DNA of 64,000 bases, from positions 3,774,001-3,838,000 of the forward strand of contig NZ_CP137555.1 of the NCBI RefSeq assembly GCF_033723955.1. The letters run 5' to 3'. Shown in pieces: positions 19,928-52,224 of this stretch (positions are counted from its first letter, which is position 1; each line of letters begins with the position of its first letter). Position numbers and translations under genes: made by a program. The notes below the pieces were generated by a model. It was not told the origin of the DNA and made no database searches. It saw only the letters and a list, made by a program, of their open reading frames with translations. Source of the stretch: Microbulbifer pacificus. GTDB lineage: Bacteria > Pseudomonadota > Gammaproteobacteria > Pseudomonadales > Cellvibrionaceae.

Positions 19928-21880
19928 ATGCTAGAAAAAATTGCTCTGCCAAAGGCCGTAAAATATTTGTCCTGCTCTGCTATCGCGTTTGCCCTCGTTG
20001 CCTGCGGTAAACCTGAGAAATTCGCGCAGTCAGACGCTGGTGAATCACTGGATTTACGCCAAAAGGTGGCGCAAAAGCTGATGCTGGATATCCGCTACTA
20101 CTGTCCGGACATGCAGCGCCCGGCCCCGGATGACAAGAGCAGCCAGCACTGTAATCAGCCGGTCACCGAACTTCCCGAGGCGCTGGCGGAAATGATCAGC
20201 CGCAACGATATCGGCGGCATCATCCTGTTTGCGGACAACCTGGAAGACAGCGCACAGATCGTGCGCCTTAACCGGAGCCTGCAGGCCGCCGCACAGCAAT
20301 CGGCCAGTGGTCTGCCGTTGTTGATTGGCGTGGATCAGGAGGGTGGGCGGGTAAACCGCTTGCCGCGAAGTGAAGCCGCGGCATTTGCGGGCAATATGGC
20401 TATCGGTGCCACCTATGCGCGCCACGGCGAGTATTTCGCAACTCAGACTGCTGCGGCGATGGGGGAGCAGCTCAAGTCACTGGGTTTCAATGTCAATTTT
20501 GCGCCCACTCTGGATGTGAACAGCAATCCGGATAACCCTGTCATCAATGTGCGCTCTTATGGCGAGTCACCGCAGTTGGTGGCCGATCTCGGAGGTGCAA
20601 GCGTTGCTGCATTCCAGCAGCAGGGTATTGCCGCGACGGTAAAACACTTTCCGGGGCATGGTGATACCAGTGTCGACAGTCATACCGGGTTGCCGCGTGT
20701 AGAGCGCCCACTGGAGCAAGCGGAGTCGGTGGATTTACTGCCGTTTGCCCGAGTGATCGCGCGCGCACAACCGGCTCTGACCATGACAGCGCATATTCAG
20801 TATCCCTCCCTGGACAACTCGGTATTGCGGTCAAAAACCGGCGAGGAAATGCTGGTTCCCGCTACGCTGTCGCGCAAGATACTGACCGGCATTTTGCGCG
20901 ACGAACTGCATTATCAGGGCGTGGTAGTTACTGACGCTCTGGATATGGCGGGTATCAGTGAGTATTTCACCCCGGATCAGGCTGTGGTGCACACCTTTGC
21001 GGCCGGCGCTGATATTGCGCTGATGCCGATCAAAATCCGCTACCCGGATGACCTGCAGCAACTGAACGCATTGATTGATGCCGTTACCGAGTCGATTGCC
21101 ACAGGTGCGGTGCCGGCTGTGGAGATCGATGAATCTGTTGCGCGCATCGAGCAACTTAAGCAGAAGTATGTGGACCAGGGCTGGCTGCAACAGGCGGAAG
21201 CCGAGGCACTTCTCGGCGCACAGCAGGTATTAGCTTCGCCACAGCACCGTGTATTGGCAAGTGAGCTGGCTACATCTGCTCTGACCGGCGTGTTCACCCC
21301 GGCGGATGCCACATTGCCGGTGATCACCAAAGACATGACGCACGTGCAGGTCATGGCGCCCAACCCGGCGGTCGGCGAGGCATTTCGTATTGCGCTCTCA
21401 GCGGTGACCTCTGCGAAAATTGAAGTTCTCGACATACCCACTGCCGTAGATCGCATCCGAAATTCAGCGGCAGACGCGCTGGTGGTGGCGAGCATCGTAC
21501 CGGCGGAAAGTGCGGTAGAGCTTGGTGGTATGGAGGATCTTGGCAAGCTGGAGTATCGGCGCCTGGATCAGGAAACACTCTACGAAATTTACCGCGAGGG
21601 CCTGATTGCCGCACGTGCCAAGGGCGCAAAAACGGCATTCATAAGTATGCGCTCGCCATACGAGAGTGGGCGCTTCAAAGACCTGGCGGACGTGCACCTG
21701 GCCAGTTTTGATTACAAGGCCTATATCGGGCCGCAGCAGAAACTTGAAGGTCCGATCTATCGCGCGCTTGCCGAAGCACTGGTCAGCGAAAAAATGCCGG
21801 ATGGGAAATTGCCGGTAACCGTGGTGGCGCCGGCGGGGAATACTGCGTCAGTACCGAAAAATGGTCGTGTTGCGGGTTGA
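19928..21880 (+). CDS. nagZ: Lipoprotein NagZ-like beta-N-acetylglucosaminidase (GH3), two-domain
   Basis: A GH3 enzyme of 650 residues. The lipobox LVAC (Cys26) marks an exported lipoprotein. The TIM barrel contains the NagZ loop KHFPGHGDTSVDSH (residues 239-252), whose Asp-His pair supplies the acid/base, and the nucleophile Asp336 in VVVTDALDMAG. A second GH3 C-terminal-like domain follows from about residue 430. Classical Gram-negative NagZ is a single-domain cytosolic enzyme of about 340 residues. This one is built like the extracytoplasmic two-domain NagZ (YbbD) of Bacillus subtilis, which removes GlcNAc from GlcNAc-MurNAc muropeptides. It is the first gene of the murein locus and has an exact operator copy just upstream. 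No clear ribosome binding site is visible, and the leader may be very short. Confidence 0.9.
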   Translation: MLEKIALPKAVKYLSCSAIAFALVACGKPEKFAQSDAGESLDLRQKVAQKLMLDIRYYCPDMQRPAPDDKSSQHCNQPVTELPEALAEMISRNDIGGIILFADNLEDSAQIVRLNRSLQAAAQQSASGLPLLIGVDQEGGRVNRLPRSEAAAFAGNMAIGATYARHGEYFATQTAAAMGEQLKSLGFNVNFAPTLDVNSNPDNPVINVRSYGESPQLVADLGGASVAAFQQQGIAATVKHFPGHGDTSVDSHTGLPRVERPLEQAESVDLLPFARVIARAQPALTMTAHIQYPSLDNSVLRSKTGEEMLVPATLSRKILTGILRDELHYQGVVVTDALDMAGISEYFTPDQAVVHTFAAGADIALMPIKIRYPDDLQQLNALIDAVTESIATGAVPAVEIDESVARIEQLKQKYVDQGWLQQAEAEALLGAQQVLASPQHRVLASELATSALTGVFTPADATLPVITKDMTHVQVMAPNPAVGEAFRIALSAVTSAKIEVLDIPTAVDRIRNSAADALVVASIVPAESAVELGGMEDLGKLEYRRLDQETLYEIYREGLIAARAKGAKTAFISMRSPYESGRFKDLADVHLASFDYKAYIGPQQKLEGPIYRALAEALVSEKMPDGKLPVTVVAPAGNTASVPKNGRVAG

Positions 21881-21995
21881 GGTATTCGCGGAAAAAATAA
21901 TGTGACGCTGGAAAATCGTAAGCTAGCTATCTACTGCCGGGTTGCGACTTTCCATGCATATTCGCAACCCGGCCTGTTCAAGTTGGCCCGGCGGA

Positions 21996-51256: not shown

Positions 51257-51372
51257 TTTGAGCGTGCAAAGGGTTTTCCAACAGCACTGGCGAAAATTGC
51301 AGCCAGCGACTGGGGAAAATGATGATAATGGCCGGTGAGTATTTTCCTGCTGCCGGTGAGAAAGGATAACCA

Positions 51373-52224
51373 ATGGGATCGTTGGCCAAAATTCGTGCGA
51401 TGCGCGATGCTATGTCGAATCACGAACGCCGTATTGCGGATTTCCTGCTGGAAAATGGCGAAGCGGTCCGCAGCCACTCTTCTAAATCACTGGCGGACAA
51501 TATTGGTGTGTCACAGTCCAGTGTGGTCAAGTTCAGCCAGAAGCTCGGCTATAAAGGTTATTCCGATTTCAAGCTCTCGCTCACCGAATCCGTGGCCCGT
51601 TCGGCCATGCTGCCGAAGATCATTCACGGGGATATCGCCTCCGACGACGATGTGACAACCGTGGCTCAAAAGCTGATTTCCCGCAAAACCCTCGCCCTGA
51701 ATGAAACCCTGTTGGTGAACTCCGAAGATACCTTGCTGAGAGCCGCCAATGCGATCCAGGGGGCGGGCAGAATTTTGTTTGCGGGGGTGGGCGCCTCGTC
51801 GCTGGTGGCAAAAGACTTTGCCTTCAAACTCATGAAGCTCGGCAAGTCGGTATTGGTGGAATCCGATACCCATGTGCAGGTGGCGAACGCGGCCACTTTG
51901 GGCACGGGCGACCTGATATTTGCCATCTCTGAATCCGGTCTTACCCAGGAAGTGATCCGCGTGGCGGAAACCGGTGCTGCAGAGGGCGCGGAGGTGCTGT
52001 CGCTGACCCGCTACTCGCGCAATCCGTTGGCGGAAATCTCAACATTAAGCCTGTTTTGTGTGGCGAATGAATCAGAGGCGCGCAGTTCATCGATTCTCGC
52101 GCGCACCGCACAACTAATGATCACAGACCTGCTGTTTATCCTGATTTCCCAGCGGGACGGCAAAGCCAAGGATATGTTTGAGCGCAGCCGTAGCGCGGTA
52201 GATGTATTCCGCCGCCGGGACTGA
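51373..52224 (+). CDS. RpiR-family regulator 2 (MurR-like)
   Basis: A 283-residue regulator with HTH_6 domain (residues 1-77) and SIS domain (about 125-260). The SIS phosphate loop FAGVGASSLVAKDFAFKL and second loop ISESGLTQEV are complete, fitting a phosphosugar ligand such as MurNAc-6-phosphate, as for E. coli MurR. The recognition helix region SQSSVVKFSQKLGYKGY differs from that of RpiR regulator 1 at only one residue. It is divergent from the symporter-kinase-MurQ operon, the classical place for its repressor. AAGGA precedes the ATG. Its transcript probably runs to the terminator at 52453 unless stopped earlier. Confidence 0.94.
   Translation: MGSLAKIRAMRDAMSNHERRIADFLLENGEAVRSHSSKSLADNIGVSQSSVVKFSQKLGYKGYSDFKLSLTESVARSAMLPKIIHGDIASDDDVTTVAQKLISRKTLALNETLLVNSEDTLLRAANAIQGAGRILFAGVGASSLVAKDFAFKLMKLGKSVLVESDTHVQVANAATLGTGDLIFAISESGLTQEVIRVAETGAAEGAEVLSLTRYSRNPLAEISTLSLFCVANESEARSSSILARTAQLMITDLLFILISQRDGKAKDMFERSRSAVDVFRRRD

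Follow-up and report, generated by a model that had tools for sequence, protein, structure and literature searches.

A probable two-module murein-catabolism locus with a shared palindromic operator in Microbulbifer pacificus

How does a Gram-negative bacterium come to carry, side by side, candidate genes for the uptake and breakdown of cell-wall sugars and of cell-wall peptides, and do these genes act as one system? The question is raised by a block of about two dozen genes in Microbulbifer pacificus, which was delimited from the list of open reading frames (ORFs) and their translations and runs from position 19928 (start of a GH3 ORF) to position 52224 (end of the second of two RpiR regulator genes) of the 64,000-nucleotide stretch of contig NZ_CP137555.1 analysed here, henceforth the window. 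The block looks built for the uptake and digestion of cell-wall sugars and peptides, and we consider it highly probable that it is a two-module murein-catabolism locus of Microbulbifer, in which a sugar module and a peptide module would stand under one operator. The proposal rests on the gene families, on their synteny in relatives, on the distribution of operator sites and on the fold of a modelled receptor.

According to the proposed scheme, soluble cell-wall fragments would enter the cell via a TonB-dependent transporter in the outer membrane. In the periplasm, an AmiD-type amidase would part the peptide from the glycan, NagZ and NamZ would remove N-acetylglucosamine (GlcNAc) and N-acetylmuramic acid (MurNAc), respectively, from the chain ends, and LdcA together with a YkfC-type endopeptidase would cleave the peptides. 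In the sugar module, MurNAc would be imported by an SSF symporter and phosphorylated by a BadF kinase, and the resulting MurNAc 6-phosphate (MurNAc-6P) would be converted by MurQ to GlcNAc 6-phosphate and D-lactate. In the peptide module, L-Ala-D-Glu would be epimerised by a YkfB-type enzyme, whereas an NhaC-type transporter and a pyridoxal phosphate (PLP)-dependent decarboxylase probably deal with lysine or diaminopimelate. Both modules would be controlled through the palindromic operator GAATAAWTTATTC, whose probable readers are the two RpiR proteins. The features concerned are listed below; leaders and protein location were judged by eye from the translations, and operator sites come from a motif scan.

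19880..19892: operator GAATAAATTATTC, perfect, in the GH3 promoter
19928..21880, plus strand: GH3 beta-N-acetylglucosaminidase of NagZ/YbbD type (profile, PDB match); lipoprotein signal
21996..23030, minus strand: N-acetylmuramoyl-L-alanine amidase of AmiD/AmpDh type (profile, PDB match); lipoprotein signal
24791..24803: operator-like site, 2 mismatches, in the receptor promoter
24971..27961, plus strand: TonB-dependent transporter with an Oar-like barrel (PF25183) and a carboxypeptidase-regulatory-like N-terminal domain (profile, fold); Sec-type leader
28098..28110: operator GAATAATTTATTC, perfect, in the NlpC promoter
28190..29626, plus strand: YkfC-like NlpC/P60 endopeptidase with an SH3b domain (profile, PDB match); lipobox
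29623..30732, plus strand: YkfB-like L-Ala-D/L-Glu epimerase (profile, PDB match)
30763..31548, plus strand: RpiR regulator 1 (RpiR1), with a diverged SIS domain (profile, alignment)
31641..33131, minus strand: transglutaminase-core protein (TGL; profile), exported, with a Sec-type leader
33173..33185: operator-like site, 1 mismatch, in the divergent TGL/S12 promoter; a second site, with 2 mismatches, at 33206
33293..34924, plus strand: S12 (beta-lactamase fold) hydrolase with DUF3471 (profile); lipobox
34974..36056, plus strand: S66 LD-carboxypeptidase, LdcA (profile); twin-arginine-like leader
36187..37596, plus strand: NhaC/PF03553-family transporter, the antiporter (profile; ATG at 36187)
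37610..39592, plus strand: PLP decarboxylase of Orn/Lys/Arg type, PF01276 (profile); proposed substrate lysine or diaminopimelate
39726..40895, plus strand: NamZ exo-beta-N-acetylmuramidase, GH171 (profile); Sec-type leader
40899..42089, plus strand: NagX-like transmembrane acetyltransferase (profile)
47652..48635, minus strand: MurQ, MurNAc-6P etherase (profile)
48689..49576, minus strand: BadF-family sugar kinase, for MurNAc or GlcNAc (profile, PDB match)
49573..51162, minus strand: SSF sodium symporter, the proposed MurNAc importer (profile)
51212-51224 and 51244-51256: two operator-like sites, 2 mismatches each, in the divergent SSF/RpiR2 promoter
51373..52224, plus strand: RpiR regulator 2 (RpiR2), MurR-like, with a canonical SIS domain (profile, alignment)

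Lipoprotein signals were thus seen on GH3, the amidase, NlpC/P60 and S12, and no leader was seen by eye on the epimerase, the decarboxylase, MurQ, the BadF kinase or the regulators. Families were assigned with Pfam and NCBIfam profiles and with PDB sequence matches. MurQ passed the equivalog cut-off of its model (TIGR00274, 396 bits against 302), and both domains of NamZ, NamZ_N and NamZ_C, were matched. The GH3 protein matched PF00933 with 283 bits and the NCBIfam hexosaminidase model with 187 bits, below its cut-off of 207, and its best PDB match was YbbD of Bacillus subtilis (3bmx), over residues 12-639 of 650. The amidase carries the Amidase_2 profile, with AmpDh3 ranked first and AmiD next in the PDB. 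A trio of ykf type is present at the family level, with the NCBIfam equivalog cut-offs unreached: the NlpC/P60 protein, with NLPC_P60 and SH3_6 domains, is closest in the PDB to 3m1u, a 'putative gamma-D-glutamyl-L-diamino acid endopeptidase' (76 bits); the epimerase is closest to the L-Ala-D/L-Glu epimerase 1jpm (345 bits; NCBIfam 256 bits, cut-off 500); and LdcA has both S66 domains (NCBIfam 197 bits, cut-off 378). NagX scored 163 bits, below its cut-off of 480, and the kinase is a clear member of the BadF family below the NCBIfam equivalog cut-off. The symporter was assigned to the SSF family by profile, and both regulators to HTH_6 plus SIS. The catalytic motifs that were sought in the enzymes were present.

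The initial annotation had described this block, at the same coordinates, as a complete locus for murein utilisation, and nearly all of the families that it listed were recovered: the amidase, the NlpC/P60 endopeptidase, the S66 carboxypeptidase, the NagZ-like GH3, NamZ, the sodium symporter, the BadF-type kinase, MurQ, the Ala-Glu epimerase, NagX and two RpiR regulators. It had overlooked the transglutaminase-like protein, the PF03553 antiporter, the PF01276 decarboxylase and the five genes of a MacB/HlyD/LolD cassette. The protein that it called AmiE-like has only generic matches to S12 hydrolases of the beta-lactamase fold, plus DUF3471; neither a model nor a structure of AmiE occurred among its profile and PDB matches, and roles as AmiE or as a D-aminopeptidase are no more than possible. 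In a genome of another family (G029, L002:187-2562), a 791-aa ORF encodes NamZ and an S12 beta-lactamase-fold domain in one chain, which hints that the two kinds of protein may cooperate.

NamZ was found in 4 of 155 genomes sampled from the order and in 25 of 369 sampled from the class. The family is represented by 144 genomes, 25 of them with NamZ, and 22 of these 25 belong to Microbulbifer (48 genomes). For the comparison with relatives, the 24 NamZ loci that the family has besides this one were taken with flanks of about 20 kb, which leaves the outer genes undercounted; three genomes with other NamZ contexts (G028, G029 and G116) were excluded from the locus, gene-order and promoter counts. 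In one of these, NamZ appears as two adjacent pieces in separate open frames, a broken gene or an assembly error (L083, G116:C118:1428-2040). The synteny check proposed with the initial annotation turned out well, since these loci keep most of the genes: MurQ in 24, SSF in 23, the antiporter, BadF and NagX in 22 each, LdcA and TGL in 21, NlpC, the epimerase, RpiR1 and RpiR2 in 20, S12 in 19, the decarboxylase in 18, the amidase in 15, the outer-membrane receptor in 14 and GH3 in 10. As the gene order recurs in relatives, the block is more than a chance assembly. The division into modules is visible in the same comparison. Each module has one RpiR gene; in G254, NlpC, the epimerase, RpiR1, S12, LdcA and the antiporter lie on a different contig from NamZ, MurQ, BadF, SSF and RpiR2, the latter accompanied by GH3 and the amidase; and four genomes (G244, G229, G236 and G248) have the peptide genes and no NamZ.

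The promoter regions have in common the 13-bp palindrome given above; earlier guesses with other spacers were dropped, as they showed no excess over chance. The window contains 11 sites at up to 2 mismatches against 0.64 expected, a number reached by none of 100 shuffles. Over the genome (4.19 Mb), the sole two perfect sites are those of the GH3 and NlpC promoters, and at up to 1 mismatch there are seven sites, namely four in the block, one before an M14-peptidase ORF and two inside ORFs, which were set aside as likely chance. At up to 2 mismatches the genome has 62 sites, compared with 15 for the reversed pattern. The M14 site has 1 mismatch (4150309), and 41 bp separate its end from the ORF (L112:1501-2964), whose product starts like a leader peptide and contains a peptidase M14 domain; this is possibly a further member of the regulon, perhaps a murein-peptide carboxypeptidase. 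When the promoters of the loci were scanned at up to 2 mismatches, excluding genes whose alignment starts more than 40 residues into the protein, sites preceded NlpC in 16/16 cases, TGL in 22/22, S12 in 18/18, the outer-membrane receptor in 14/15, SSF in 22/24, RpiR2 in 20/21, GH3 in 6/7 and the amidase in 8/12. Internal genes were nearly free of them (epimerase 0/21, LdcA 1/21, decarboxylase 0/19, NamZ 1/25, MurQ 0/25). The operator is thus shared by the operon starts and not by the internal genes, a partly circular test that points to a single regulon.

Loci unused in motif finding were also scanned, at up to 1 mismatch. Six of seven peptide-module loci and one of four MurQ-only loci had a site, and it was seen in none of the four control loci (the genome's own AmpG, AnmK, second MurQ and decarboxylase paralog) and in none of five decarboxylase loci outside the block. 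For other genera, the best 80 of 561 confirmed candidate NamZ loci were compared and 12 chosen from them were scanned; six had a site, in all six before GH3, SSF, BadF or MurQ, and two of these (L139 and L154) look like close relatives. Perfect matches occurred in 15 of 200 fetched loci, all from this family.

The recognition region of the regulators reads GVSQSSVVKFSQK in all 41 RpiR1 and RpiR2 sequences compared. The SIS pattern of RpiR2 (GVGASSLV, AISESGxT) is kept in 20/20, and at its position RpiR1 has CDFGGEES or variants in 21/21. A common recognition helix with differing sensor domains suggests that two different signals act on one operator; the common stretch does not prove that both proteins bind the same site, since it may be the usual form of the subfamily.

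The receptor was folded and compared by structure, as the PDB sequence search gave no relative; its PF07715 plug had no sequence match. The model, built from 31 aligned sequences, has a mean predicted local distance difference test score (pLDDT) of 75 and a predicted template-modelling score (pTM) of 0.78. Its best fold match was FusA (E 1.6e-34), followed by YddB and FecA, with SusC-type transporters lower down; the protein models as a TonB-dependent transporter with a plug and a 22-strand barrel, in keeping with the TonB receptor of the initial annotation. Among the best 120 matches, many named homologs are annotated as TonB-dependent receptors, and the NamZ loci compared from other genera hold homologs in Pseudoalteromonas (51%) and in Robiginitomaculum (46%). 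Upstream of the block lies another such gene:

12889..15537, minus strand: second TonB-dependent receptor (TonB barrel and plug; TIGR01782, 659 bits), probable regulon member

It is preceded by two operator sites with 2 mismatches, at 15600 and 15633, and homologs of 75-84% are found inside the block of G231, G227 and G276, so that it probably belongs to the regulon. No SusD occurs among the Pfam matches in the block, and the SusC/SusD pair of Bacteroidota-type polysaccharide-utilisation loci is thus missing; the block would work like a polysaccharide-utilisation locus though it is not classed as one.

The relatives' loci hold further genes that may deal with the odd products of murein. A glcDEF set was found in 20 of the 24 loci, 19 of which have it between the NamZ and MurQ genes, and it adjoins MurQ also in the NamZ-less G236, G248 and G249; by profile, GlcF is above its cut-off (474 against 333) and GlcD (621 against 897) and GlcE (254 against 284) are below theirs. 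The MurQ reaction releases D-lactate. An engineered Corynebacterium growing on MurNAc accumulated lactate (D-lactate; PMC6165865), and with these two observations a D-lactate oxidase becomes the natural reading; GlcDEF is likely the oxidase for MurQ-derived D-lactate. A VanX-like M15 domain is present in 16/24 loci, in one ORF with NamZ in eight and separate in eight (for example L012:742-2607 in G240 and L073:17985-18686 in G278), and PxpA in 7/24 within the fetched stretch. In two Simiduia genomes (G278 and G276), a LysA-like gene takes the position of the decarboxylase and AnmK adjoins MurQ; both genes of G278 score above the model cut-offs (LysA 482 against 298, AnmK 435 against 367).

In the PDB, the decarboxylase of the block is related to decarboxylases of arginine, lysine and ornithine, and among the best 120 matches it belongs to a clade of 25 clusters at 64-98% identity, whose named members are only Microbulbifer and Simiduia, beyond which identity drops to about 52%, the level of the second copy in the genus; all matches in a plasmid search were below 60%. 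A strict tie to the locus was rejected, as G144, G275, G276, G277 and G278 carry the gene elsewhere. There is a real, if minority, chance that the role of the decarboxylase, and perhaps that of the antiporter, has nothing to do with murein and that the operon has taken in, for instance, a gene pair for acid stress or polyamines: this would agree with the PDB relatives, with the five outside orthologs, none of them with an operator, and with the loci that lack the gene. The neighbours of the outside orthologs speak against it, being LdcA and the antiporter in G277, the antiporter in G144 and 5-oxoprolinase genes in G275, G276 and G278, as do the lysA gene at the same position in the two Simiduia loci, the D-glutamate cyclase families PF07286 and PF14336 nearby, profile-confirmed in G277 only, and a distant member (50%) adjoining NamZ in Biformimicrobium (G161). 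We read the decarboxylase as part of diaminopimelate and lysine disposal, most simply as a lysine decarboxylase after LysA; direct action on diaminopimelate is possible. In G277 (L088:67-10900), D-glutamate cyclases and 5-oxoprolinase genes adjoin LdcA, antiporter and decarboxylase, a possible route for murein D-glutamate; Simiduia gene sets with PxpA and PxpC matches also lie near the decarboxylase (L086:12242-17400, L087, L103).

A more far-reaching version of the scheme, which we find rather unlikely as a whole, combines a two-sensor switch at a single operator used by both RpiR paralogs, in which RpiR2 would respond to MurNAc-6P and RpiR1 to a peptide-side signal or act as a fixed competitor, with the recruitment of enzymes for the odd products of murein. 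These would be glcDEF for D-lactate, the NamZ-fused VanX of eight loci for D-Ala-D-Ala, 5-oxoprolinase genes for D-Glu and, for diaminopimelate, LysA or a fold-I Orn/Lys/Arg decarboxylase turned diaminopimelate decarboxylase.

Does the locus feed on foreign murein, or could it salvage the products of the cell's own wall turnover? The enzymes would take either source, the Simiduia locus contains anmK, and NamZ, NagZ and MurQ serve recycling or salvage in other bacteria too. Genes for recycling, however, lie elsewhere in the same genome, in keeping with the initial annotation, which had seen no classical ones inside the block: AmpG (521 bits, cut-off 350) and AnmK (470 bits, cut-off 24), both at a great distance from it, and a second MurQ, 74% identical, at 540423 near a MupP-like phosphatase (225 bits, below the cut-off of 359), and none of the three has the operator. 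The block moreover includes an outer-membrane receptor, and NamZ is dispensable, as fewer than half of the Microbulbifer genomes have it. Own-wall salvage therefore seems improbable to us. The separate recycling genes support a dedicated catabolic role, which does not imply that the fragments come from other bacteria; that its use would be the consumption of dead bacteria, and not recycling, is an inference. Still less probable, and very unlikely, is a chitin or GlcNAc island with murein genes added, whose main substrate would be GlcNAc. GH3, NagX and BadF are all compatible with such use, but MurQ, NamZ, the epimerase, LdcA and the YkfC-type peptidase, each kept in at least 20 of the 24 loci, have to our knowledge no role in chitin use.

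Several observations weigh against the favoured reading of a murein-catabolism locus. GH3 is kept in only 10 of the 24 loci, a count lowered by the 20-kb flanks, the receptor slot is variable, and the decarboxylase is absent from 6/24 loci and stands without operator at its five outside loci. The receptor counts have a complication of their own, as homologs of 71-74% (among the best 120 matches) apparently occur in G218, G259 and G231, whose fetched loci lack the receptor. The best PDB match of the BadF kinase is the GlcNAc kinase NagK (1zc6, 124 bits) and not MurK, with the MurNAc/GlcNAc kinase 8zo3 second (62 bits), and sequence cannot tell its specificity. The claim of completeness could not be upheld: no endo-acting glycosidase or lytic transglycosylase appeared among the Pfam matches of the block proteins, and no GlcD match was obtained in this genome at 1e-20, in a search without positive control. 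The operator counts for window and promoters are neither independent nor free of circularity, because the TGL/S12 and SSF/RpiR2 intergenic regions are shared and the motif was found there, and one peptide-module locus (L096, of seven), three of the four MurQ-only loci and six of the 12 NamZ loci of other genera are free of sites. The murein-directed enzymes, the receptor fold and the synteny nevertheless stand, and a murein-catabolism locus remains the reading that we favour.

The remaining features of the region are not taken as parts of the pathway or lie at its edge:

23387..24448, plus strand: 353-aa protein that falls into no known family; Sec-type leader
42168..47593, minus strand: exporter cassette of MacB, three HlyD-like proteins and LolD (profile), read as an insertion
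52284..52296: operator-like site, 1 mismatch, 60 bp past RpiR2

The 353-aa protein had no Pfam or NCBIfam match and was rejected as a pathway part, being absent from all 24 relatives' NamZ loci; by eye it resembles a right-handed beta-helix. The cassette, which adjoins MurQ, was rejected likewise, as only two of the 24 loci (G220 and G224) share it; G224 retains glcDEF beside the cassette, and G220 and the window are without it. The site past RpiR2 is retained as GAATAATATATTC in many relatives despite differing downstream genes. Rfam and transfer-RNA scans of the window gave no matches.

Bacterial cell walls hold a large amount of organic matter, and fragments of peptidoglycan reportedly serve Flavobacterium johnsoniae as a carbon source (PMC6401489). 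If our reading is true, the block would offer a defined set for such use (receptor, hydrolases, importer, MurQ, operator and two regulators) and a hint of how cells handle the D-lactate that, according to PMC6165865, accumulated in the MurNAc-using engineered Corynebacterium. In the open-access literature, as far as listings and the starts of abstracts tell, we found no description of a murein-feeding gene locus behind a TonB receptor, and no paper on the Alteromonadales-type loci discussed below.

The nearest described pathway is MurT-MurK-MurQ of Tannerella forsythia, a Gram-negative that uses outside MurNAc as it cannot make its own; there, according to PMC10465942 and PMC7670621, an inner-membrane MurNAc transporter, a MurNAc kinase and MurQ form one operon, and the MurT family is described as conserved within Bacteroidetes. 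The window likewise holds a transporter, a kinase and MurQ together, as candidates by family, in a Gram-negative host, but unlike that small operon it adds the peptide module, NamZ, GH3, the TonB receptor and two RpiR regulators. Its SSF protein shares 23-25% with those of Bacteroidota NamZ loci (among the best 80 of 561 loci, T. forsythia MurT not included).

Two operons of B. subtilis offer the other comparisons. One is murQ-murR-murP-amiE-nagZ-namZ, with which the window shares MurQ, an RpiR/MurR regulator, a NagZ lipoprotein (by best PDB match), NamZ and an S12-family protein; it differs in having SSF and a BadF kinase instead of the phosphotransferase-system protein MurP, in its Gram-negative host, TonB receptor and added peptide genes, and in an S12 protein that is at most a putative AmiE. 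The other, ykfABC, encodes LdcA, an L-Ala-D/L-Glu epimerase and YkfC, and has its counterparts in LdcA, the epimerase (closest to 1jpm) and the YkfC-like NlpC/P60 protein of the window, where two operons divide the set between them and also carry an RpiR gene, a transglutaminase-like protein, the antiporter and the decarboxylase. The order SSF-BadF-MurQ-NamZ is shared with Alteromonadales-type loci of Lacimicrobium (L122), Alishewanella (L134), Rheinheimera (L154), Arsukibacterium (L194) and Pseudoalteromonas (L157). GH3 is present in four of these five and the operator in L122, L154 and L157, and L157 also has NlpC, the epimerase, the outer-membrane receptor, RpiR, the amidase and the antiporter; these loci are smaller than that of the window, and within their flanks, of 10 kb or less, the decarboxylase has no match. 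Thus, the modules themselves are known from T. forsythia MurTKQ and from the ykf and namZ genes of B. subtilis, whereas their combination, the shared operator and the side enzymes look new.

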